Virus record (IMG/VR): IMGVR_UViG_3300025379_000047
Location: 1-31,340 of that record
Strand: one strand, 5' to 3'
Length of the DNA: 31,340 nt
From: a virus
The position numbers and the translations under genes are program-made. The notes under the pieces were generated by a model. The model saw only the letters and a list, made by a program, of their open reading frames with translations. It was not told the origin of the DNA and did no database searches. This document shows, piece by piece, positions 286 to 27,622 of this stretch; the stretch's first letter is position 1; every line of letters starts with the position of its first letter.

Positions 286-3200
286 TCACTCCACTTTTCT
301 TTCTAATTCAGCTACTCGTGCTGTTAATTCTTTAATAGCCGCAAATGCTAGAGCTACTAATTTTTCATAATCAACTGCTAGAGATCCGTCAGTGCGTGTT
401 CTTACAGCCAACGGGAACGCTTTTTCAACATCTTGAGCAATAACACCAAAGTCTGTTTTTCTTTGGAAATATTCATGCTCACCGCCATGATCTCGGAGAT
501 AGTCTTGTGTCCAACTAAATGTCTTACCACCAATACTATTAACTTTATTTAAAGCTCCTTGAATGTCTTGAACATTTTCTTTGAATTTACGATCTGAACT
601 GTAAAAACCTATGATGTTACCTTCAGCAGTAATCTGTCCGTTGGCATAAGTTGGGGTATGTACAATGCCCACATAAATGGATGCGGGTTGAATATCACCA
701 CCTGGAGTAATACCTCCCACAGATCCAGTATAACCAATTGGGCCTTGTGGTCCTGCCGTTGTGCTGGCACTTCCGGTATACCCAAGTGCTGCATACGCAC
801 CATTACTACCTGTATAACCTAATCCACCGTTGGCGCCCACACTTCCAGTATAACCTTGTGTGCCAACACCAGCGGTACCTTGACTACCCGCATATCCAAC
901 AGATCCACTATAGCCCAAAGGTCCTTGACTACCGCTGTAACCATTTAGTCCTTGGCCACCAATACTGCCAGTGTAGCCTTGTGGGCCAATACTACCACTA
1001 TAGCCCAAAGGTCCTTGTGGCCCAGCCACACCTGCTGATCCTGTATAGCCCACGCTGCCAGTATATCCATTGCTGCCTGAATATCCAAATCCGCCTGTGG
1101 ATCCCGTATAACCTACCGATCCGTTATATCCTGGACTGCCCAGTGCTGAACTACCTGTGAATCCAGCACTACCAGTATAACCAAATGGTCCTGATGTGCC
1201 GCTGGAACCCCAATAACCTGCTGATCCCGTAAATCCAGTACTACCAGTATATCCTCCTACACCGCTAGTACCAGCACTACCCGCATACCCTATATCGCCA
1301 ATACTACCGTCATAGCCAGCACTACCAGTATAACCTGGAGAACCAGCACCGCCCACTAATCCAGAACTTCCTGTGTAGCCTGCGCTACCTGTAAAACCAC
1401 CACTACCTGTATAGCCAGGAGCTGTACTTGCTGATCCAGCGTAACCTTGTGATCCAGCATATCCTTGGCTACCATCAAACCCTCTAGGTCCAAGTACTGC
1501 GCCGACGTTTAAGAATCCATTGTAGTAATCACCAGGAGCAGGACCTGCTGTGCCAGTACCGCCGTTGTATACCCATAAGTCACCAGTGTCTAAGGCAATG
1601 TAGGAATCACCGTTGCTACCGCCACCTGGCAATCCCAAATATGTGGCCACTGTGCCTTTAATATTAAACGAAGTACCTTGGCTACCAGCATATCCAACGC
1701 TACCCCAATATCCAGCTGATCCAGCGTAACCTTGACTACCAGTGTAGCCTAATCCGCCCGTACTACCTGAGCTACCAGTGTAGCCCTGTGGGCCCTGTGG
1801 GCCAACACTACCTGAGTAACCAAGACTACCTGTATAGCCTGTTGGTCCAGAGATATTGCCTGAATAGATCCAAGCACTACCGTTCCACACCCATAAACTT
1901 CCGTTGGCATCCTGGCCAGTACCAGGAGTTATACTATTGTAAATGATATAGGCATCGCCTTGCGTATTTCCAAAAGCTGGCAAATTAGTATGATTCGATA
2001 CGCTGCCTTTGAAATTAATACTATTACCTTGACTACCGGTATATCCTACACTACCTGTATAACCAACACTACCAGCATATCCCTGAGGGCCAATGCTACC
2101 TGCAAATCCAATACTGCCAGTATACCCTGTTACTGTACTAGCTGATCCAGTATAACCTGAACTGCCAGCATAACCTTGACTACCAGTATAGCCAACTGAT
2201 CCAGCATAGCCTTGACTGCCGGTATATCCTTGCGGGCCTTGTGGACCTTGAATTGGTCCAACATCAACCCATCCGCTATTACTATGGGCACCGCCGTAGA
2301 CCCATAAATGGCCAGTTGTGGTATCTAAATATCCGTCGCCTATCGTGGTATCACCTGTGGCTACCAATAAGTAAACTGCTGTACCTGGTGTCGATGAGTT
2401 ACCTGTGGATCCATTACTGGTAATTGTGCCTTTGAGTGAAAGACCTGTGCCTTGGCTACCGTCATAGCCTTGACTGCCAACGTAGCCCTGTGGACCAACA
2501 CTGCCAGTATATCCAACACTACCAGTGTATCCCAAACTACCACTATAACCCAAACTACCTGCGTAGCCTTGACTGCCAGAATATCCAACTGATCCAGTAT
2601 ACCCCACACTACCACTATACCCTAAACTACCTGTATAACCTGTGTTACCAATTGAGCCTGTATAACCTGTAAAGCCGCGACTGCCAGTATATCCTAATAG
2701 CCCTTGACTACCAGCATAACCCTGTGAACCAAAATATCCTCCAAGTCCCACGCTACCTGTAAAGCCAATACTACCTATGCTACCATCATAACCTCTACTG
2801 CCAGTAAACCCTTGTATACCCTGGCTGCCTGCGTAGCCTGAATTCGGAGTATTGCCCACTGTGACTTCGTAGGTTGTTGTATTATAGTATAAAATAGTGC
2901 CTGGTAAAGTGCCTGTTAATCTAACAGGTGTTATGTAGGTACTGCTGGTTTGATTAGCAATACCGTCTACTTCATTACCTGTGGCATTGATAATAATAGT
3001 ATTGGCAGCTTGAGTATTTGATGAGGCAAAACCTGCTTTTTGTCCAATCGCTATTGAATTAGCACCTTGACCATACAATCCTGCATTAGTGCCAATAGCA
3101 ATTGCAAATGCGCCTTGACTATTATTTCCTGCGTTTAGACCAATTGCTATAGCATCAGCACCTTGATTTCCAGCTCCTGAGGTGGCACCAATAGCAATGG

Positions 3201-4815
3201 CGTCAGCACCTTGACCAAAGGAGCCCGCGTCGGTACCAATACTAATAGCTCCACCACCCTGTGCGCCTGCTCCAGCCGCTTGTCCAATAGCAATAGCCCA
3301 TTGCCCTTGCCCTTGGCTTCCAGCATATCCACCAATTGCTATGGCCTCTGGAGCTTGACTATTCAGTCCCGCAAATAGTCCAATCGCAATAGCACCAATA
3401 CCTTGATTATTTTCTCCCGCGCTAGCACCGACAGCTATAGCAGAATTGGCCTGACTAGTCTGACCAGCATACTGCCCAACAGCTATAGAACTGCTACCTT
3501 GACCAGATTGTCCCGCATTTGCTCCTACAGCTACAGAACTGTTACCTTGACTGGTCAGTCCTGCACTTGCTCCTACAGCTACAGAATTATTGCCTTGTCC
3601 AACATTACCTGCTTGAACACCAACAGCAACAGAACTGGCACTTTGACTGGTTTGGCCAGCATCTGTACCAATAGCAATAGAACTGCTGCCTTGGTTGGTA
3701 TCGCCAGCGCCTGTACCAATAGCAACTGCATTGCCTCCTTGGGAACTTGATGCCGCATTGCCTATGGCAATGGCGTTGGCGCCTTGATTACCATTTATAG
3801 CCGCTGTGGTACCGATAGCAACTGCATCAGCACCTTGGGTAATTAAACTTTGTGTGATATTAACGGCATTGCCGTTGTTGGCTTGGAAATATAAACTGGC
3901 AAGTCCGCTAGAATTTACCAGTTCTATAAATCCACCAGATACAATATTTTTAGCAACACCAACACCGCCAGCAACTATCAATGCTCCTGAATTGGTACCA
4001 ACTGTGTTGGTTGGACTGGTTAATTTTAATATGGGGCTAGTTAATGTGCCTGTATTAGGAGCAAAACTCAATCCAGCATAAATGCCTGGGCTAGCATATA
4101 CTCCAGGAGCAACAAACATGCCAGGATAAACAGTTGAACTTGATGCTGTGATTGTGCCAACAAAAACTGTGCCTGCTTGGCCAGAATATGCTGGAATAAT
4201 ACTGGCTGTGCTGATCCATGTAGCTGTATTGCCTGGACCATACTGTAGTAGATATCCAGCAGTGCCTGGAGCAATAAACGCAGTGGCGCTGGTTGCTGAT
4301 TGAATAGGAATAGCACCTGCTACTCCACCTGCTAGGTTAGTAGCATAAACTGATTGTGGTGCCGCGCTGCCTGTGTACCCAATTGGTCCTTGAACACCAG
4401 CACTGCCCGCATAGCCCTGTGGACCGGCTGGTCCTGGAGTGGTGCTGGCTGAACCTGTATATCCAGCACTGCCTGAGTAGCCTTTGCTACCAGCATAGCC
4501 CTGTGGTCCCTGTGGGCCCACACTACCTGTATACCCTTGACTACCTGTGTAGCCCTGACTACCAGTATAACCTTGTGGACCTTGTGGCCCAACACTACCT
4601 GTGTAGCCTAAACTTCCCGAATAACCTTGGCTGCCAGTAAATCCAATTGGACCCTGTGGTCCTTGCGGACCAGCTGGACCTTGTGTTTGTAATAAGGAAA
4701 CTACCTGTGGGGTAGTAAGTGTTTGTTCAACTGACTGATCTTCAACAATGAATAGGGTGGTCCCTGTTGTCGGGTTGGTCAGCTGTGGTAAATTTTGAAG
4801 ATCTTGACGGCTCAT
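286..4815 (-). CDS. Giant collagen-like tail fibre with YadA-like head repeats and S74 chaperone domain
   Basis: A 1509-residue structural protein, probably a trimeric host-recognition tail fibre. Residues 1-45 form a non-repeat N-terminus likely to attach to the virion. Then come long G-x-x tracts dominated by GYTGS and GYAGS units (about 45-165, 660-790 and 860-1380), broken by short globular inserts with WVY/LWVYNG motifs. Residues about 330-620 carry a different 14-residue-type repeat (AIAIG..AG..Q), like the left-handed beta-roll of YadA/trimeric autotransporter heads. The last ~115 residues (SSDRKFKENV... to ...LTARVAELERKVE) match the peptidase S74 intramolecular chaperone: the Ser-Asp before RKFKEN is the usual self-cleavage site and the end is coiled coil. 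A TATAAATA late promoter lies at 4842-4849. The start codon is ATG at 4815. Function by family; the receptor is unknown. Confidence 0.93.
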   Translation of the reverse strand: MSRQDLQNLPQLTNPTTGTTLFIVEDQSVEQTLTTPQVVSLLQTQGPAGPQGPQGPIGFTGSQGYSGSLGYTGSVGPQGPQGYTGSQGYTGSQGYTGSVGPQGPQGYAGSKGYSGSAGYTGSASTTPGPAGPQGYAGSAGVQGPIGYTGSAAPQSVYATNLAGGVAGAIPIQSATSATAFIAPGTAGYLLQYGPGNTATWISTASIIPAYSGQAGTVFVGTITASSSTVYPGMFVAPGVYASPGIYAGLSFAPNTGTLTSPILKLTSPTNTVGTNSGALIVAGGVGVAKNIVSGGFIELVNSSGLASLYFQANNGNAVNITQSLITQGADAVAIGTTAAINGNQGANAIAIGNAASSSQGGNAVAIGTGAGDTNQGSSSIAIGTDAGQTSQSASSVAVGVQAGNVGQGNNSVAVGASAGLTSQGNSSVAVGANAGQSGQGSSSIAVGQYAGQTSQANSAIAVGASAGENNQGIGAIAIGLFAGLNSQAPEAIAIGGYAGSQGQGQWAIAIGQAAGAGAQGGGAISIGTDAGSFGQGADAIAIGATSGAGNQGADAIAIGLNAGNNSQGAFAIAIGTNAGLYGQGANSIAIGQKAGFASSNTQAANTIIINATGNEVDGIANQTSSTYITPVRLTGTLPGTILYYNTTTYEVTVGNTPNSGYAGSQGIQGFTGSRGYDGSIGSIGFTGSVGLGGYFGSQGYAGSQGLLGYTGSRGFTGYTGSIGNTGYTGSLGYSGSVGYTGSVGYSGSQGYAGSLGYSGSLGYTGSVGYTGSVGPQGYVGSQGYDGSQGTGLSLKGTITSNGSTGNSSTPGTAVYLLVATGDTTIGDGYLDTTTGHLWVYGGAHSNSGWVDVGPIQGPQGPQGYTGSQGYAGSVGYTGSQGYAGSSGYTGSASTVTGYTGSIGFAGSIGPQGYAGSVGYTGSVGYTGSQGNSINFKGSVSNHTNLPAFGNTQGDAYIIYNSITPGTGQDANGSLWVWNGSAWIYSGNISGPTGYTGSLGYSGSVGPQGPQGYTGSSGSTGGLGYTGSQGYAGSAGYWGSVGYAGSQGTSFNIKGTVATYLGLPGGGSNGDSYIALDTGDLWVYNGGTGTAGPAPGDYYNGFLNVGAVLGPRGFDGSQGYAGSQGYAGSASTAPGYTGSGGFTGSAGYTGSSGLVGGAGSPGYTGSAGYDGSIGDIGYAGSAGTSGVGGYTGSTGFTGSAGYWGSSGTSGPFGYTGSAGFTGSSALGSPGYNGSVGYTGSTGGFGYSGSNGYTGSVGYTGSAGVAGPQGPLGYSGSIGPQGYTGSIGGQGLNGYSGSQGPLGYSGSVGYAGSQGTAGVGTQGYTGSVGANGGLGYTGSNGAYAALGYTGSASTTAGPQGPIGYTGSVGGITPGGDIQPASIYVGIVHTPTYANGQITAEGNIIGFYSSDRKFKENVQDIQGALNKVNSIGGKTFSWTQDYLRDHGGEHEYFQRKTDFGVIAQDVEKAFPLAVRTRTDGSLAVDYEKLVALAFAAIKELTARVAELERKVE

Positions 4816-8922: not shown

Positions 8923-9063
8923 ATGAAAAGCGTAACGAATTTTAGACAACATTATTCCATAGCCAAACAGGCCGGCTTTATGCCTACCTATTGGTTAGCG
9001 ATTAATAGTCTAAACTCAGATCGCACACCAGAGATTACAAGGGTCCAGGAGACCAAAGTGTAA
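8923..9063 (+). CDS. Small basic protein, 46 aa, unknown
   Basis: ATG 8923 to TAA 9063, encoding a 46-residue protein that begins MKSVTNFRQHYSIAKQAGF and ends ITRVQETKV. It is supported by two upstream sigma70-type promoters and by a rho-independent terminator 27 bases after the stop, making a single-gene transcription unit. The ribosome site is weak (GAGAACAG). No domain recognised. Its early-type promoters suggest a small host-interaction protein; that is inference. Confidence 0.55.
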   Translation: MKSVTNFRQHYSIAKQAGFMPTYWLAINSLNSDRTPEITRVQETKV

Positions 9064-13884: not shown

Positions 13885-15288
13885 ATGGCAACATTTGTAG
13901 AAGCAGTAGCAAATCAAGAAGCCCGTACTGCCAATGGTATGAAGGCCCGCAAGTCCTCAGCTAATGCTGTAGTAGACTTGTTTTACAATATCGGTGCTAG
14001 TCGTGGCAAGGACATTGTTCCTGCCTTTACAGCCGCTTTGGTGGCTGATCGCGAACTAGCACTTCGTATCGCACTATGGGCACGTGATGCTCGTGGTGGA
14101 GCAGGTGAACGTGAATTGTTCCGTTCAATCCTGAAGTATCTGGAAACTAACGACAAGATGGCAGTAATGTCACTGTTGAAGAAGATTCCAGAATTGGGTC
14201 GCTGGGACGACATCTTTGTCTTTACTGACCCAGATGTTAAGAAGGCCGCTTACACAATGCTAGGTGACGCTCTTCGTGAGAAGAACGGCTTGGCTGCTAA
14301 GTGGACTCCACGTAAGGGTGAAGTGGCACGTGAAATCCGTGAATTCTTTGGTATGAGCCCAAAGTTCTACCGTAAGAGTCTAGTAGCACTTACCAAGGTC
14401 GTTGAAACACAAATGTGTGCCAAGGACTGGGATAACATCAACTTTAGCCATGTGCCAAGTGTAGCGGCTAGCCGTTACAAGAAGGCATTTAACCGTAACA
14501 CTACAAAGTTCGCCGAGTATGTTGCGAGTTTGGTTAAGGGTGACCCAACCGTAAAGGTAAATGCTTCGGCAATTTTCCCTTACGATGTCTTGAAGAATGT
14601 TGCCTATGGTAACTTCAACAAGACAGAAACTGATTTGATCGTTGCTCAATGGGAGGCTTTGCCTAACTATGTGGGCGACGCAAACATCCTACCACTGGTT
14701 GACGTTAGCGGTTCTATGTCCAGCCCAGCAGGCAAGAACACTAAGGTCACTTGTATGGATGTAGCAGTTTCACTAGGTTTGTACTTGGCTGAAAAGAACA
14801 CTGGCAAGTTCAAGGACACGTTCCTAACTTTCAGTGACCGTCCAGAACTCTTGACCCTAAAGGGTAACGTAGTTCAAAAGATGGCCCAAATGGTTAAGTC
14901 CGATTGGGGCATGAGTACTAACCTACACGCGGCTTTCAGCAAGATCCTTGATGTTGCTGTGAAGGGCAATGTTCCACAAAGTGAAATGCCAGAAATGGTT
15001 TTGATCTTGAGTGACATGCAGTTCAACCAATGCGTAAAGCATGACTCTTCAGCAATGGAGATGATTGAACGCAAGTACGAAGCCGCAGGCTACGCTGTAC
15101 CACAAGTTGTTTTCTGGAACCTAAACAGTTCAGATAACGTGCCTGTTAAGTCAGACAAGAGTGGTGCCGCACTAGTGTCAGGTTTTAGCCCAGCTATTGC
15201 CAAGGCACTATTGGCCGCAGACATGAGTGAATTCACACCAGAAGGCATCATGTTGAAGACTGTGATGAGCGATCGTTACAGCTTCTAA
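13885..15288 (+). CDS. Ro60-like protein (TROVE/DUF2828 with vWA domain)
   Basis: 467 residues. The N-terminal ~265 residues are helical with 'ALWARDARGGAGERELFR', 'IPELGRWDDIFVF' and 'DWDNINFSHVPSVAASRYKKAF', hallmarks of DUF2828, the TROVE-related HEAT-repeat family. The C-terminal part is a von Willebrand A domain with a complete MIDAS: D273-V-S275-G-S277, T345 and D377. Ro60/Rsr proteins form a ring that binds misfolded RNA and Y RNAs and work with exonucleases in RNA quality control. Start ATG 13885 has AAAGGAG 7 bases upstream. The upstream leader carries two copies of the RNA motif family, and a Y RNA-like element lies 330 bases upstream, supporting an RNA-binding role. A hairpin and terminator follow. 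TROVE versus DUF2828 cannot be settled by eye. Confidence 0.88.
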   Translation: MATFVEAVANQEARTANGMKARKSSANAVVDLFYNIGASRGKDIVPAFTAALVADRELALRIALWARDARGGAGERELFRSILKYLETNDKMAVMSLLKKIPELGRWDDIFVFTDPDVKKAAYTMLGDALREKNGLAAKWTPRKGEVAREIREFFGMSPKFYRKSLVALTKVVETQMCAKDWDNINFSHVPSVAASRYKKAFNRNTTKFAEYVASLVKGDPTVKVNASAIFPYDVLKNVAYGNFNKTETDLIVAQWEALPNYVGDANILPLVDVSGSMSSPAGKNTKVTCMDVAVSLGLYLAEKNTGKFKDTFLTFSDRPELLTLKGNVVQKMAQMVKSDWGMSTNLHAAFSKILDVAVKGNVPQSEMPEMVLILSDMQFNQCVKHDSSAMEMIERKYEAAGYAVPQVVFWNLNSSDNVPVKSDKSGAALVSGFSPAIAKALLAADMSEFTPEGIMLKTVMSDRYSF

Positions 15289-15495: not shown

Positions 15496-16068
15496 TTAAA
15501 TTAAGTCTTTGAAGATATCCAAGGCTTGATTCATGGTGATTCGACGGCTGGTGTCTTTATGAATGATATCGGCGCAGATGCTATGACGTTTTTGATCTTG
15601 ATTTTGTACAGTGTGTGGTATGCCAACCTGTACTAGATGTGGGCCTGAGATTGCCTGTGAGTGGATGCATTCCACATCGTCTGGACCATAGACAATATGT
15701 TGTACTTTGTGTCGGTCTAACTGATCAATATGATTCCGGAACTTGTACCATTTCATTTCACTGCCCTCCCCACCGTAGATCCAATTGATACGCACATAGT
15801 CATTTTCCACAAACTGATCCACATGTGGTTGATCTACATGAATTGGATGTGCTTCATAAGGGCCACAGTAAAATATATCAACGAGACTCACCATGATGTT
15901 TCGTTGATCCATAAAAGATTTTAATTTGGGATTGACAAATACCAAAGGTATGTATTCCAAGTTTGAGTAGTGTTTGTTTAAATTTCTAGGTCTATTGATA
16001 TCATACACATCAAACCCTTCGAACAGTGGGTCAATGTCAATATTGATTGATCTACAAAAAGTATTCAT
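15496..16068 (-). CDS. 2OG-Fe(II) oxygenase-like protein, paralog 1 (late-type)
   Basis: 190 residues from ATG 16068, chosen because its N-terminus (INIDIDPLFEGF) aligns with the paralog at 16783 and because an AATAAATA box lies exactly 5 bases upstream. The jelly-roll signature is visible: H77-V-D79, strand RINWIYGGEGSEMKWY, H152 in LVQVGIPHTV and R161. These give the Fe(II) triad and the 2-oxoglutarate Arg expected of hydroxylases. The C-terminus ends in a conserved RRITMNQALDIFKDLI helix. The substrate is unknown; no ribosome site is visible. It is one of seven oxygenases in the window. Confidence 0.7.
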   Translation of the reverse strand: MNTFCRSINIDIDPLFEGFDVYDINRPRNLNKHYSNLEYIPLVFVNPKLKSFMDQRNIMVSLVDIFYCGPYEAHPIHVDQPHVDQFVENDYVRINWIYGGEGSEMKWYKFRNHIDQLDRHKVQHIVYGPDDVECIHSQAISGPHLVQVGIPHTVQNQDQKRHSICADIIHKDTSRRITMNQALDIFKDLI

Positions 16069-17587: not shown

Positions 17588-18178
17588 ATGATAGATAAGA
17601 ATGAAATTATAGTTTTAGATGATGTCATATCAAAGTCTCAACAAGATGGCATAGAAGCCTTATTGTTGGGGCATCGTACTCCTTGGGTCTATATGCATGA
17701 CATTGCCTTATCCAAGGAAGAACTAAAAAAGTTGGGTATTGTACAACGTACCCCAGGAATGGCCAGTTACTTCAATGATGAGTTGATCAAATATCATAAT
17801 AAATTTTTATTTGATGAAATGAAAGTTGTAGCGCAGGCCGCGGCAAAAGCAATTAATTTTCCTTTGAAAAAAATATTGGCCAGTAGAAGTTTTTTACATT
17901 TTCCTGTTAGGGAAGAACTACACAAAAAATATGACAATGTTCATGTTGATCACGAATTTGATCATCTAGTATGTTTGTATTATGTAAACAACACAGATGG
18001 TGACACAGTATTGTTTAAATCTTTTCATGGCGATAAGGTCAGTTTGTCTACTATTGAGGAACATCAAAGAGTCAGTCCTAAAAAAGGCAGATGTATATTG
18101 TTTAATGGCACACGATTCCACTCTAGTACACCGCCCACCAAGGACATACGCTGTATTGCTAACTATACTTTACTATGA
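17588..18178 (+). CDS. 2OG-Fe(II) oxygenase (prolyl 4-hydroxylase-like), copy 1
   Basis: 196 residues. The jelly-roll core is clear: H119-V-D121, 'HLVCLYYVNNTDGDTVLF', then 'PKKGRCILFNGTRFHSS' with the distal His H178, and R188 for 2-oxoglutarate. This matches phage 2OG-Fe(II) oxygenases of the prolyl 4-hydroxylase-like group. They hydroxylate protein or small-molecule substrates using Fe(II), O2 and 2-oxoglutarate. The stop codon overlaps the start of the next oxygenase (ATGA), so the two are co-translated. Only a weak GGTG ribosome site is seen. Confidence 0.9.
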   Translation: MIDKNEIIVLDDVISKSQQDGIEALLLGHRTPWVYMHDIALSKEELKKLGIVQRTPGMASYFNDELIKYHNKFLFDEMKVVAQAAAKAINFPLKKILASRSFLHFPVREELHKKYDNVHVDHEFDHLVCLYYVNNTDGDTVLFKSFHGDKVSLSTIEEHQRVSPKKGRCILFNGTRFHSSTPPTKDIRCIANYTLL

Positions 18179-21790: not shown

Positions 21791-22057
21791 ATGAGAGCAA
21801 GTCATGTTTTAACTGACACATTAGAAGAAGCACAATTGATTAGGAAAAAAATCAATCAAGGCATTGACATTTCAATGTTGGCATACACACATAGTATATG
21901 CCCAGATAGCAAAAATAATTTAGGGGATCTAGGTGAATTGACATCAGATCAAATGGATCCAATATTAGAGGCCGCTATCAACAGCATTGGTATTGGTTCA
22001 TATACTGGGCCAATTCAAACAGCGGCAGGATATCACGTGGTCAAACGTACAGGTTAA
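21791..22057 (+). CDS. Parvulin-type peptidyl-prolyl isomerase, copy 1
   Basis: 88 residues: a single stand-alone parvulin (PpiC/rotamase) domain. 'RASHVLTDTLEEAQLI' gives the first catalytic His, 'GDLGELTSDQMDPILEAAINSI' the central G-D-L-G and the substrate loop, and 'GPIQTAAGYHVVKRTG' the final catalytic His strand. No signal peptide, so it acts in the cytoplasm, probably folding phage proteins. Compared with copy 2 the substrate-binding Phe pattern is altered (ELTSDQMDPILEA versus EFGPGQMVKPFEDA), so specificity may differ. Ribosome site AAGGAA upstream. Confidence 0.92.
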   Translation: MRASHVLTDTLEEAQLIRKKINQGIDISMLAYTHSICPDSKNNLGDLGELTSDQMDPILEAAINSIGIGSYTGPIQTAAGYHVVKRTG

Positions 22058-22072
22058 CAACAAGGAAAATAA

Positions 22073-22339
22073 ATGAGAGCAAGTCATATTTTGGTAGATA
22101 CATTAGAGTTAGCACAAGAACTTAGAAGCCAAGTTAATGCCAACAGTAACAATTTTGAAGAAATCGCAAAAAAATTCAGCAAATGTCCTAGTGGACGCAA
22201 TGGCGGTGATCTAGGCGAATTTGGTCCAGGGCAAATGGTCAAACCCTTTGAAGATGCTGTAAACAGTATTAGTATTGGTTCATACACTGGCCCAGTACAA
22301 ACACAGTTTGGCTTTCACATCGTTAAGAGAACTGGTTAA
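22073..22339 (+). CDS. Parvulin-type peptidyl-prolyl isomerase, copy 2
   Basis: 88 residues and a better match to the parvulin consensus than copy 1: 'RASHILVDTLELAQEL', 'KFSKCPSGRNGGDLGEFGPGQMVKPFEDA' and 'GPVQTQFGFHIVKRTG'. All expected features (two His, GDLG, FGPGQM, F of KPFE) are present. It is a tandem duplicate 15 bases after copy 1 with an AAGGAA ribosome site. Cytoplasmic, without signal peptide. Confidence 0.95.
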   Translation: MRASHILVDTLELAQELRSQVNANSNNFEEIAKKFSKCPSGRNGGDLGEFGPGQMVKPFEDAVNSISIGSYTGPVQTQFGFHIVKRTG

Positions 22340-23151: not shown

Positions 23152-24315
23152 ATGAAAAAACTAGCAATCATTGGCCGAGGTACAGCAGGATGTTATGCCA
23201 TAGCATATTTTTTAAAAAGTACCAATTGGAATATTGATTGGTATTTTGATCCCAATGTGGCTCCACAGAGTGTGGGTGAAGGCTCCACCGTGGAATTCCC
23301 CACTAATTTAGATCAATTCTTGGGATTCAAATTACCACAACTAGACAGTGTAGACGGCACATTCAAAGCAGGTATTAAAAAACAGGGTTGGGGATCAGGC
23401 AAAGAGTATTATCACCTATTTCCATCCGGTACTGTGGCCTATCATTTCAATGCGGTCAAACTACAGGAATGGATCATAAATTATGCCGGCAGTCAAAGCC
23501 GGGTAAAAATTATCAACAATAACATAAAAGCCTATAATGATATTGATTCTGATTTTGTTCTAGACTGTTCAGGTAGACCCAGCGAAAATGAACTACAACA
23601 CTTTCATCTTCCCCAAACTATTCCGGTTAATGCTGTTCATGTTACTCAATGTTATTGGGATATTCCAAGATTTCAATATTCACTGAACATTGCCAAAAAA
23701 CACGGGTGGGTTTTTGGTATTCCCCTACAAAACAGATGTAGTATTGGTTATTTGTATAACCATAAAATCAATACCATAGACGAAGTCAAGGAAGATGTTC
23801 AATCAATTTTTGATCAGTATGGTTTGACACCCAGCGAAACTACCAATAGTTTCACATTTAATAATTACTACCGTAAACAAAACTTTTATGGTCGAGTGGC
23901 ATTTAATGGTAATGCCAGTTTCTTTTTAGAACCCCTAGAAGCCACATCAATTGCCTGTATGAATGTGGTAAATGTCATGGCACATCGTCACTGGACTGGG
24001 CGGAGCGAAAATTCCAACAAAGTATACTATGATTATATCAACCGACTGGAAGACATGATCATGCTACACTACTACAAGAATGATATGTATGATAGTGATT
24101 TTTGGAAGTTTGCCACAGAACGCGGCCAGGCACGTATCAAAGAAACCATACGCAAACAAAACATATTTAGATCTGTGATCAAATACGCAATAGATGACAG
24201 CGATATAAATCCCTTACTTGAAGGATATGGGTACGGAACGTGGGGTCAAATATCCTATACAGCAAACATCAAAGGCATGGGACTGGCTCAGGATCTATCA
24301 CCATTAATACAATAA
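23152..24315 (+). CDS. Flavin-dependent halogenase (tryptophan-halogenase family), copy 1
   Basis: 387 residues. FAD-binding GRGTAG (G8-x-G10-x-x-G13), GEGST at 42-46, the catalytic Lys K72 in DGTFKAGIKK (equivalent of Lys79 of PrnA), DCSG at 138-141, GWVFGIP at 185-191 and FLEPLEATS near 258-266. The W-x-W-x-I-P motif of classical halogenases is W-x-F-x-I-P here. The family uses reduced flavin, O2 and halide to form a Lys-haloamine that halogenates an electron-rich substrate. The viral member VirX1 from a cyanophage prefers iodide and also lacks the classical motif. No flavin reductase gene is seen nearby; the substrate is unknown. Confidence 0.93.
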   Translation: MKKLAIIGRGTAGCYAIAYFLKSTNWNIDWYFDPNVAPQSVGEGSTVEFPTNLDQFLGFKLPQLDSVDGTFKAGIKKQGWGSGKEYYHLFPSGTVAYHFNAVKLQEWIINYAGSQSRVKIINNNIKAYNDIDSDFVLDCSGRPSENELQHFHLPQTIPVNAVHVTQCYWDIPRFQYSLNIAKKHGWVFGIPLQNRCSIGYLYNHKINTIDEVKEDVQSIFDQYGLTPSETTNSFTFNNYYRKQNFYGRVAFNGNASFFLEPLEATSIACMNVVNVMAHRHWTGRSENSNKVYYDYINRLEDMIMLHYYKNDMYDSDFWKFATERGQARIKETIRKQNIFRSVIKYAIDDSDINPLLEGYGYGTWGQISYTANIKGMGLAQDLSPLIQ

Positions 24316-24330
24316 TAATTAAATATTGCC

Positions 24331-25548
24331 ATGAGTAAAATAAAATTAGCAGTTATTGGACGCGGTACTGCCGGAGCTTATGGTGTCAGTCATTTTTTAA
24401 AAAGCACCAAATGGGAAATCGATTGGTACTTTGATGCCAAGCAACCGCCACAGGCAGTGGGAGAAGGATCTACTTTGGAATTTCCCATACAGTTATTCCA
24501 TAACATGGGATTTACCTATAGCGATCTAGAAAAGATAGATGGCACTCCTAAACTTGGAATTCAAAAATCAGGTTGGGGCAGGGACGGTGCTGAATTCATG
24601 CATTGGTTTAGCGCAGGGTTCAATGCCTATCATTTCAATGCCAATAAGCTACAAGACTACATTTTAGATTATGTACAAGCATCTCCTAGAGTAAAAATTA
24701 TCGATCAGAGAGTTACCAGCTATGATGATATAGATGCCACTTATATCTTGGATTGTTCAGGAAAACCCGGAGAGGATGACCGAGATCAATTTGTCATGTC
24801 AGATTACATTCCTGTTAATTCAGTACACGTCACACAATGTTATTGGGATGTCGCAGAATTTCATTATTCACTAAATCTTGCTAGAAAACATGGCTGGGTA
24901 TTTGGCATTCCATTACGCAATAGATGTAGTATTGGGTACCTATATAACAATAATATATCTACACTAGATGAAATCAAGGAAGATGTTCAAGAAGTATTTG
25001 GCCGTTACAGGTTAACACCCAGTGACCATACCAATACTTTTAATTTTAGAAACTACTATAGAAAACAAAACTTTTATCCTAGACTGTGTTATAATGGCAA
25101 TGCTAGTTATTTCCTAGAACCAATTGAAGCTACTTCAATTTATTTCATGGATATCATACAGTGGGCCGCCGAAGCTGTTTGGAAAGAAGGCAAACACTAC
25201 AGTCTAGCCAATATAAAATATGAAAGACTGATTAAAGAAATGGAAACTATGATCATGTTCCACTACTTTAAGAATCAAGTCTACGAAACAGAATTTTGGC
25301 GGTTTGCCACAGAACGTGGAGTCAGAGGTATTAAAAAATCTCTAGCAGAAGATCCCATGTTCAGAGGAGTAGTGACAAGGATCGTTAATCCCAAATGGGA
25401 ACATCCTGATATTTCAACAAAAATTCCTCCAGGATATGCTACATGGGCTGAACCATCATTCCATTTACATATGGAACAACTAGATGTTAGACAAGAATTA
25501 ATTCAGCTATTAGAAGATACTAAAGATAACAATGCGGGTATGATGTAA
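24331..25548 (+). CDS. Flavin-dependent halogenase, copy 2
   Basis: 405 residues, a close duplicate of copy 1 (GRGTAGAYGVSHFLKSTKW, GEGSTLEFP, GTPKLGIQKSGWG with K74, DCSGKPGEDD, GWVFGIPLRNRCSIGYLYN, FLEPIEATS). The start has no clear ribosome site, as in copy 1, and sits 15 bases after its stop. The last codons (DNNAGMM) overlap tRNA-Gly(GCC) by 15 bases, so tRNA processing would cut the mRNA inside the stop region. Likely similar chemistry on a related substrate. Confidence 0.93.
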   Translation: MSKIKLAVIGRGTAGAYGVSHFLKSTKWEIDWYFDAKQPPQAVGEGSTLEFPIQLFHNMGFTYSDLEKIDGTPKLGIQKSGWGRDGAEFMHWFSAGFNAYHFNANKLQDYILDYVQASPRVKIIDQRVTSYDDIDATYILDCSGKPGEDDRDQFVMSDYIPVNSVHVTQCYWDVAEFHYSLNLARKHGWVFGIPLRNRCSIGYLYNNNISTLDEIKEDVQEVFGRYRLTPSDHTNTFNFRNYYRKQNFYPRLCYNGNASYFLEPIEATSIYFMDIIQWAAEAVWKEGKHYSLANIKYERLIKEMETMIMFHYFKNQVYETEFWRFATERGVRGIKKSLAEDPMFRGVVTRIVNPKWEHPDISTKIPPGYATWAEPSFHLHMEQLDVRQELIQLLEDTKDNNAGMM

Positions 25549-25607
25549 TGGTAACCTACAACTTTGCCAAAGTTGATTTGCGAGTTCGATTCTCGCTACC
25601 CGCTCCA
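25534..25607 (+). tRNA. tRNA-Gly(GCC)
   Basis: Acceptor GCGGGTA/TACCCGC, arm CAACT/AGTTG, loop TTGCCAA, discriminator T, CCA encoded. Its first 15 bases overlap the 3' end of halogenase copy 2. Confidence 0.94.
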
Positions 25608-25611
25608 TATT

Positions 25612-26256
25612 ATGACTTATAAAATTAAGCCGACTACAGATAATTTTAAGACTCATATGTTGTTTCCCACAGTGGTGGCAACTGTGGATAACACATCGAT
25701 CCCAAGACAGGATCATGAGTTAGTATTAAATTCAGAGTATGTGGTTCAAAGTAAGTACGGCGCATTTCCTACTACCAAGAACAAACGCATATTAGACACC
25801 GTGCCATCTATAAAAGCATGGATACAACTTCAGTTGGACAAATATGCTAGAGATATCATGGGTTCGGAAAAATTACAGTTCACACAAAGTTGGGCAATTA
25901 AACACGAAAATATACCGCAAAGCATTTTCACACATTCGCATGCCAATTCAATTATCAGCGGCAGTTATTATATTGATGCTCCCACAGGCAGTGAAGCATT
26001 GACCTTTATCAAACCATCTTATGTTGGTGGCGGTCCAGTCGTTGAGTACGAAAAAGATTTCCAAAATAAACCTTGGCTATATGACGAAATTAAATTTGGT
26101 GCTAACACTGGCCGTCTTATTTTATTCCCCAGTAATCTACAACATGCCGTGATGGGGTATCAAACCATGCGTCAACGTAGATGTGTATTGGCATTTAACA
26201 CTTGGTTTGCTGGACCGATTGGCACCGAAGAAGGATTGACAAGGTTAGAACTATGA
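25612..26256 (+). CDS. 2OG-Fe(II) oxygenase, TIGR02466/2OG-FeII_Oxy_5 type, beside halogenases
   Basis: 214 residues from ATG 25612, only 4 bases after tRNA-Gly; the ORF continues upstream through the tRNA but that part is not coding. 'QSIFTHSHANSIISGSYYIDA' gives H108-S-H110 and the SG-x-YY-I family motif; 'GRLILFPSNLQHAVMGYQ' gives H178; R190 may bind 2-oxoglutarate. The stop overlaps the start of halogenase copy 3 (ATGA), so oxygenase and halogenase are co-translated. This suggests that both act on the same substrate or pathway. Confidence 0.9.
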   Translation: MTYKIKPTTDNFKTHMLFPTVVATVDNTSIPRQDHELVLNSEYVVQSKYGAFPTTKNKRILDTVPSIKAWIQLQLDKYARDIMGSEKLQFTQSWAIKHENIPQSIFTHSHANSIISGSYYIDAPTGSEALTFIKPSYVGGGPVVEYEKDFQNKPWLYDEIKFGANTGRLILFPSNLQHAVMGYQTMRQRRCVLAFNTWFAGPIGTEEGLTRLEL

Positions 26257-27443
26257 AAAAGCGTATAGCAGTAATTGGCGTAGGCACTGCAGGTATTATT
26301 TCCCTGTGTGAATTGTTGCCCTATATGACAGACAATTGGGACGTATACAGCATATTTGATTCTAATAAGCCTATATTAGGAATTGGAGAAAGTACCAATC
26401 CTAATTTTATTATGACTCTACAGGATGCCACAAGGTTTCAATTCGCTGACTTAGATTTATTGGATGGTACACTAAAATTTGGAACTCGTTACAAGAGATG
26501 GCGAGAACACGATTTTGTAAATCCCTTATTTGGCGCAGGCTATGCTGTACATTTTAACAATTTTGAACTTAAAGAATTTGCTTTTGAAAGGTTCCATAAA
26601 TTTTGGCCAAACAAGTTTAAAGAAATGCATGGCACAGTGTCTGAAATTATTCCTGGAAAAAAATCAGCACAGATTGTGATTGATGGTAGGACTGAAGAAT
26701 TTGACTATGTCATTGACTGTATGGGCTTTCCCAATGACTATAAAGACTACAACATGTCCAATTGTAGCCCAGTTAACCACTGTATTGTATATTCTTTGCC
26801 CACTGGCAATTATGATCAGTATACTGACCATGTGGCCATGAACGCAGGTTGGATGTTTGGAATTCCCCTTCAGTCTAGACATACCTACGGATATTTGTTT
26901 AATGATGTTAAATCCAAACGAGAAGATGTTATAGAAGAAATGGGTGAGTATTTAAATACCAAATTAGATCCAGCTCAAATTAAAGAATATCAATTCCAAT
27001 CTTATTATGCCAAAAAAGCCTATGAGGGTCGAGTATTAAAAAATGGCACCAAGGCGTTCTTTCTAGAACCACTGAGTGCTAGTTCGATATTTTTTTACAT
27101 ACAGAATGTTAAAACTTTTACTGACCATTTGGCCGCCCCTGATAAGTTTGATGAAAACTACGTCAACGAAATGTTTGAAATATATTCAGAAAATTTAGAA
27201 GATTTACTCAGCTTCTTTTATCATGGTGGATCCATATTGGACACAGAATTTTGGCGACATGCTAAGACATTGGGTCAGAACAGATTAAAGAAAAGTAGAA
27301 TGTTAAGTCACGTGTCCAATGAACTAAAGAAGAATGGTGCCATAGGACTATTAAACGAAGGCCCAAAGTGGTTCTTCAATCCCATGTCGCTTCGATTAGT
27401 TGATGAAAATATGGGCTACAACTACTTTAAAGTTCCAAAATAA
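26253..27443 (+). CDS. Flavin-dependent halogenase, copy 3 (divergent)
   Basis: 396 residues from ATG 26253, in a 4-base overlap with the oxygenase; the frame upstream overlaps that gene and is not used. GVGTAG (9-14), GIGESTNP, catalytic K75 in DGTLKFGTRYKRW, DCMGFP, GWMFGIPLQSRHTYGYLF at 199, and FFLEPLSASS near 269-278. It is more distant from copies 1 and 2: the second Glu of EPLE is Ser. Substrate and halide unknown. A terminator follows. Confidence 0.9.
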   Translation: MKKRIAVIGVGTAGIISLCELLPYMTDNWDVYSIFDSNKPILGIGESTNPNFIMTLQDATRFQFADLDLLDGTLKFGTRYKRWREHDFVNPLFGAGYAVHFNNFELKEFAFERFHKFWPNKFKEMHGTVSEIIPGKKSAQIVIDGRTEEFDYVIDCMGFPNDYKDYNMSNCSPVNHCIVYSLPTGNYDQYTDHVAMNAGWMFGIPLQSRHTYGYLFNDVKSKREDVIEEMGEYLNTKLDPAQIKEYQFQSYYAKKAYEGRVLKNGTKAFFLEPLSASSIFFYIQNVKTFTDHLAAPDKFDENYVNEMFEIYSENLEDLLSFFYHGGSILDTEFWRHAKTLGQNRLKKSRMLSHVSNELKKNGAIGLLNEGPKWFFNPMSLRLVDENMGYNYFKVPK

Positions 27444-27517: not shown

Positions 27518-27546
27518 TTGACAAATCAACTAGAATGTCATATAAT
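27518..27546 (+). promoter_or_regulatory. Consensus sigma70 promoter
   Basis: TTGACA 27518-27523, TATAAT 27541-27546, 17-base spacer. Confidence 0.78.
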
Positions 27547-27593: not shown

Positions 27594-27622
27594 TTGACAA
27601 AGGCACAATTCTTAGTTATAAT
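27594..27622 (+). promoter_or_regulatory. Consensus sigma70 promoter, tandem
   Basis: TTGACA 27594-27599, TATAAT 27617-27622, 17-base spacer, 33 bases before the AAA ATPase ATG. Confidence 0.8.

Follow-up and report, generated by a model that had tools for sequence, protein, structure and literature searches.

A virus record of 31,340 bases, the whole of which is the window analysed here, carries three short homologues of flavin-dependent halogenases (FDHs) and a predicted 2OG-Fe(II) oxygenase in close succession. Are these proteins FDHs by fold and active site, and what might a phage do with three of them? The locus comprises the following features:

23152 to 24315, plus strand: hal1, a short FDH of 387 residues (clade B; PF04820) with the motifs GRGTAG and WVFGIP
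23365 to 23367 and 23938 to 23940, plus strand: K72 and E263 of hal1
24331 to 25548, plus strand: hal2, a short FDH of 405 residues (clade B; PF04820) with K74 and E266
25534 to 25607, plus strand: tRNA-Gly(gcc), called by ARAGORN, between hal2 and the oxygenase
25612 to 26256, plus strand: 2OG-Fe(II) oxygenase of 214 residues (PF13759/phrog_81) with the family pattern HSH...H...R
26253 to 27443, plus strand: hal3, a Glu-less FDH of 396 residues (clade C2; PF04820) with the motif WMFGIP
26475 to 26477 and 27075 to 27077, plus strand: K75 and S275 of hal3, the latter at the position of PrnA E346
27518 to 27546 and 27594 to 27622, plus strand: two sigma-70 promoter matches (TTGACA-17-TATAAT, each 12/12)

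The earlier note on this DNA had placed three halogenases and an oxygenase at 23152 to 27443, and its coordinates are right, with matches to PF04820, phrog_2928, and PF13759. The overlap of four bases that it described is the ATGA at 26253 to 26256, common to the end of the oxygenase and the start of hal3. The note had also called the oxygenase co-translated, overlooking the tRNA-Gly, which shares 15 nt with the 3′ end of hal2 and is followed, 4 nt past its end, by the oxygenase ATG at 25612. This gene occupies the same position in the related viral contigs L010 and L009, where changes in the anticodon stem are paired on both sides, so it is a real tRNA. Because it separates hal2 from the oxygenase, coupled translation can be considered only for the oxygenase with hal3, and a co-translated operon of all four genes is ruled out. 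The tandem sigma-70 matches stand ahead of the next gene and probably mark the next operon and the downstream boundary of the cluster.

The cassette is also found in other viral contigs (L008/L035, L009/L037, and L010/L036) and partially in L034. A 71-kb relative (G001) carries a T4-type clamp loader and PhoH, which makes a T4-like tailed phage likely. Within the window, 33 tRNA genes are scattered among the coding genes between 9403 and 25607, and tRNA arrays also house the halogenase loci L010, L011, L012, L068, and L122.

The products of hal1, hal2, and hal3 are FDH homologues in a conserved phage cluster. All three exceed the PF04820 gathering score of 21 bits, with 109 bits for hal1 (E 2.7e-31), 85 bits for hal2 (E 9e-24), and 115 bits for hal3 (E 5e-33); PF04820 and phrog_2928 are their sole Pfam and PHROG matches at the default threshold. 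The AlphaFold models of hal1 (pLDDT 93.8) and hal3 (pLDDT 89.3) have SttH (5hy5) as the nearest solved structure, with Z scores of 39.9 and 41.5, respectively, and the close structural neighbours listed for both are FDHs. The same fold is expected for hal2 from its 52% identity to hal1. By sequence, hal3 is best matched by MibH, a lanthipeptide Trp halogenase. The phage proteins are 387 to 405 residues long, compared with 497 to 554 for the matched PDB chains; the profile alignment skips about 55 residues near PrnA positions 91 to 156 and ends early. Relative to the nearest relatives, L010 and L009, dN/dS is 0.07 for hal1, 0.08 for hal2, and 0.05 for the oxygenase, and it lies between 0.05 and 0.08 for all four genes. 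The cluster is thus under purifying selection, and chance ORFs or pseudogenes are ruled out.

The FAD motif and the catalytic Lys are present in all three proteins, as the note had reported: GxGxxG reads GRGTAG in hal1 and hal2 and GVGTAG in hal3, and the equivalent of PrnA K79 is K72, K74, and K75, respectively. In PrnA, K79A abolishes activity and E346Q slows the enzyme ~100-fold (PMC5727139). The column of this Glu, located in the profile alignment by the PrnA E346D entry 2jkc, holds E263 in hal1 and E266 in hal2. In hal3 it holds S275, an exchange that adds to the earlier reading. Since E346Q is so slow in PrnA, hal3 might have almost no activity toward indoles.

The phylogenetic tree has three parts: (i) clade A, full-length and mostly with WxWxIP, (ii) clade B, of the hal1/hal2 type, and (iii) clade C, of the hal3 type. 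While hal1 and hal2 are clade B paralogues, hal3 comes from the other clade and has a different active site. Clade C splits into one branch with the Glu and one without (support for the Glu-less node 0.993), and the tree indicates that the catalytic Glu was lost once in the viral clade that contains hal3. The 30 representatives of this branch, C2, were assigned to it from their sequence length together with the residue at the Glu position itself; the count at that position (Ser 22, Phe 6, Thr 1, Ala 1) is therefore no test, and invariance elsewhere is. All 30 retain G8, G10, G13, E43, K72, W186, F188, P191, F258, E260, P261, and W318, which span the FAD motif, the Glu of GEG/GES, the Lys, the Trp, Phe, and Pro of WxFxIP, and the F, E, and P of FxEP. 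Because every other tested catalytic position is invariant, the loss of the Glu is not decay. Separate changes to Gln at the Glu site occur in L027 and in the cyanophage S-SSM7. Two further FDH homologues, at 8968 to 10146 in L097 (Lys to Arg, Glu to Gln) and at 2674 to 3942 in L101 (Lys to Arg, Glu to Met), each have an intact FDH nearby.

Such pairings raise the prospect that hal3-type proteins are catalytically dead or serve as regulatory partners of active copies in hetero-oligomers. FDHs in which the Glu or Lys is changed often share a record with an intact one (the window, L027, L097, L101, and S-SSM7), the odd copies in L097 and L101 have exchanged the Lys as well, and the phage halogenase VirX1 is trimeric according to a review (PMC8407142). 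A dead subunit would have no need of the Lys and the FAD-site residues that all 30 C2 representatives keep, and many C2 loci have no second FDH within 6 kb (L129 to L139 and L144 to L146), so we consider this reading unlikely. An active hal3 is preferred. With one catalytic residue exchanged and the rest of the active site fixed, this large branch allows the debated contribution of the Glu to FDH catalysis to be tested directly.

Two signature motifs of the family are altered in all three proteins. WxWxIP is WVFGIP in hal1 and hal2 and WMFGIP in hal3, with the first Trp and the Pro kept, and FxxPxxSxG is replaced by FxxPxxAxS (FLEPLEATS, FLEPIEATS, and FLEPLSASS in hal1, hal2, and hal3, respectively). 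The active BrvH carries a Ser at the Gly position of the latter motif (PMC7336383). The note had correctly read WxFxIP in all three; as a peculiarity of this phage it is rejected, for Phe replaces the second Trp in 113 of the 121 viral copies of the first locus set and is a clade signature. It weakens the label of canonical FDH and leaves homology untouched. Since WxWxIP has been suggested to block monooxygenation (PMC8407142, PMC5945002), the short enzymes might be flavin monooxygenases that hydroxylate rather than halogenate, and oxygenases are indeed present in the same cluster. However, the Lys is needed for halogenation and unneeded for hydroxylation, yet it is invariant in C2 and kept by 87 of 90 representatives of clade B and C1, the Glu-bearing branch of clade C. 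Moreover, Bmp5 is an FDH without WxWxIP, some active FDHs miss the motif (PMC8407142), and some full-length clade A phage copies have F or L at that Trp and retain the Glu. Hydroxylation by these flavoenzymes is accordingly given a low probability, and halogenation is what we infer for all three.

These enzymes appear to be nearly confined to viruses. In IMG/VR, 368 loci with short FDHs related to hal1 and hal2 were confirmed, which places such enzymes on at least 368 viral contigs, and only three matches, all on metagenome-assembled contigs, were obtained among 84,980 prokaryote genomes (two at 29 to 30% identity, one at 38%) in a scan by short exact peptide patterns, through which distant cellular relatives can slip. 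That single scan, within the same limit, argues against a recent bacterial acquisition. At least two FDHs occur together in 21 of the 97 loci of the first set, which are partly non-independent; up to four per cluster occur in the second set (L190, L194), and two to four are common in IMG/VR contigs. A cyanophage with two copies was listed in 2010 (PMC3037559, Table 3), and several FDHs per phage are already known. The near virus-only Glu-less branch suggests that halogenation by these viruses follows more than one kind of chemistry. The proposal in the note that three diverged copies act on several substrates or in a pathway is a plausible one and has gained support from the separate clade and active site of hal3 and the clustering of PF13759 with FDHs, although multi-FDH phages are common.

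The oxygenase matches PF13759 with 60.6 bits (E 2.1e-16; gathering score 27) and phrog_81. Its HSH...H...R pattern, a candidate Fe/2OG-binding site, compares with SHIHPHS in 3bvc, a weak match (E 0.07). Simple counting of adjacent genes within the first locus set gave 9 loci against 4.7 expected, with a permutation maximum of 12, and because this was too weak alone, a record-level test by circular shifts was made. In 26 records of 43 to 332 kb that hold PF13759, thinned of near-duplicates by eye and with rounded gene positions entered by hand, PF13759 lies within 1.5 kb of an FDH in 14 records against 4.3 expected (0/5000 shifts) and within 5 kb in 18 against 8.5 expected. The clustering may stem partly from shared variable regions of phage genomes.

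A more intimate linkage is seen in five contigs (L140, L160, L164, L176, and L177), where a C2 FDH is fused to an extra C-terminal domain of 250 residues. This domain belongs to phrog_2954, is of a different family from the PF13759 oxygenase of the window, and contains an invariant H-x-D and a further His downstream. A Pfam scan of the domain gave no clear family; its Pfam and PDB matches are weak and lean toward 2OG oxygenases, so that it is possibly 2OG-like, and the phrog_2954 label of ferrochelatase is doubtful. Oxygenases linked or fused to FDHs point toward the substrates of the latter.

One candidate substrate is a polymer of the virion or the host surface, such as Tyr or Trp of a tail fibre, which the FDHs and prolyl-hydroxylase-like oxygenases would modify with no small molecule involved. 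The window encodes a tail fibre of 1509 residues (286 to 4815, minus strand) with collagen-like GYTGS/GPQGPQ repeats, collagen-like fibre genes lie near an FDH in 9 of 68 groups, and MibH, the best match of hal3, acts on a peptide-borne Trp. The fibre gene is, however, 18 kb distant and on the opposite strand, many FDH loci have no nearby fibre, and some proximity is expected because tail fibres occupy variable regions; surface modification is therefore judged improbable.

We give about even odds to the proposal that hal1 and hal2 act on indole-like groups, that hal3 acts on a phenol-like group that is more activated, and that the oxygenase belongs to the same pathway. The cluster would then tailor a single substrate, or a single substrate group, by oxidation. 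Each FDH would use FADH2, presumably reduced by the host, and O2 to convert a halide to HOX, which would then pass to the conserved Lys. Among those window proteins that were scanned, none was recognized as a flavin reductase. In hal1 and hal2, the Glu would assist halogenation of a heteroaryl group, indole-like or otherwise, and free tryptophan is probably not the substrate. In hal3, a mode like that of phenol-type FDHs would serve a more activated ring, for which help from the Glu is unneeded. The PF13759 oxygenase may share its substrate, or its target molecule, with the FDHs and would act by hydroxylation. The reservation about free Trp comes from the Tyr-Tyr at PrnA 443 to 444, part of the Trp-backbone stretch (~443 to 459, Tyr-Tyr...Glu...Asn), which is unconserved in a profile alignment that is weak there; in the same weakly aligned region, W364 of hal1 is a possible match to PrnA W455. 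A motif that includes this Tyr-Tyr stretch has been tied to free-Trp activity (PMC8269204).

A bolder proposal is that the Glu-less enzymes form a distinct FDH subfamily of aquatic phages with its own chemistry, sometimes fused to a 2OG-like domain, which halogenates and hydroxylates a shared phage- or host-specific target in a virus-made pathway not known from cells. As a whole, this is a long shot, somewhat less remote than the alternatives weighed above. We know of no phage halogenase whose natural substrate has been determined.

Among characterized enzymes, VirX1 of cyanophage Syn10 (PDB 6qgm) resembles hal1 and hal3 in being a phage-borne protein with the FDH fold and the Lys. It is 531 residues long, has an active-site Glu according to the review (PMC8407142), and is only 18 to 20% identical to hal1 and hal3, with Z scores (29.3 and 30.6, respectively) below those of Trp halogenases; its iodination activity, offered earlier as a guide, thus says little here. 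SttH, AbeH, PrnA, and BrvH share the fold (Z 32 to 41), GxGxxG, and the Lys with the phage enzymes and the Glu with hal1 and hal2. Compared with these Trp/indole halogenases, the phage enzymes are 100 to 150 residues shorter, carry WxFxIP, and lack the Trp-backbone-binding stretch as far as the alignment, weak there, can be read; hal3 also lacks the Glu. The short size may be useful for biocatalysis.

In the phenol-clade FDH CHEESY1, F310 immediately precedes the motif Ser, and an Asp lies three positions ahead of F310 (PMC12645471). CHEESY1 thus has no Glu directly before that Ser and an acid three positions earlier, the EPxS/EPxF layout also seen in hal3 and C2. By sequence, C2 groups with PF04820 halogenases instead of phenol-type FDHs (CHEESY1, PltM, Rdc2), so the likeness looks convergent. 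The cyanophage prnA homologues (T4-like GC 212) include short FDHs in S-RIM4, S-SSM5, S-MS29, and S-SSM7 at 30 to 46% identity, with two copies in some phages (PMC3037559). The S-MS29 copy retains the Glu, unlike hal3. A three-gene cluster with an oxygenase is undescribed for them in the literature found, and neither the Glu-less clade nor its link to oxygenases is described in the literature searched.

The window holds further genes of interest. More 2OG-oxygenase-like ORFs lie between 15496 and 21683, at 17588, 18175, 19272, and 21030, and those starting at 15496 and 16241, which have no Pfam or PHROG match, are possibly of this kind. Directly after the tRNA array, at 13885 to 15288, is a gene for a protein of 467 residues that matches PF25043/PF11443 and phrog_850 ("RNA-binding protein") and has a Ro60/TROVE-like appearance by eye. 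Two parvulin-type PPIases of 88 residues each are encoded in tandem at 21791 to 22339.
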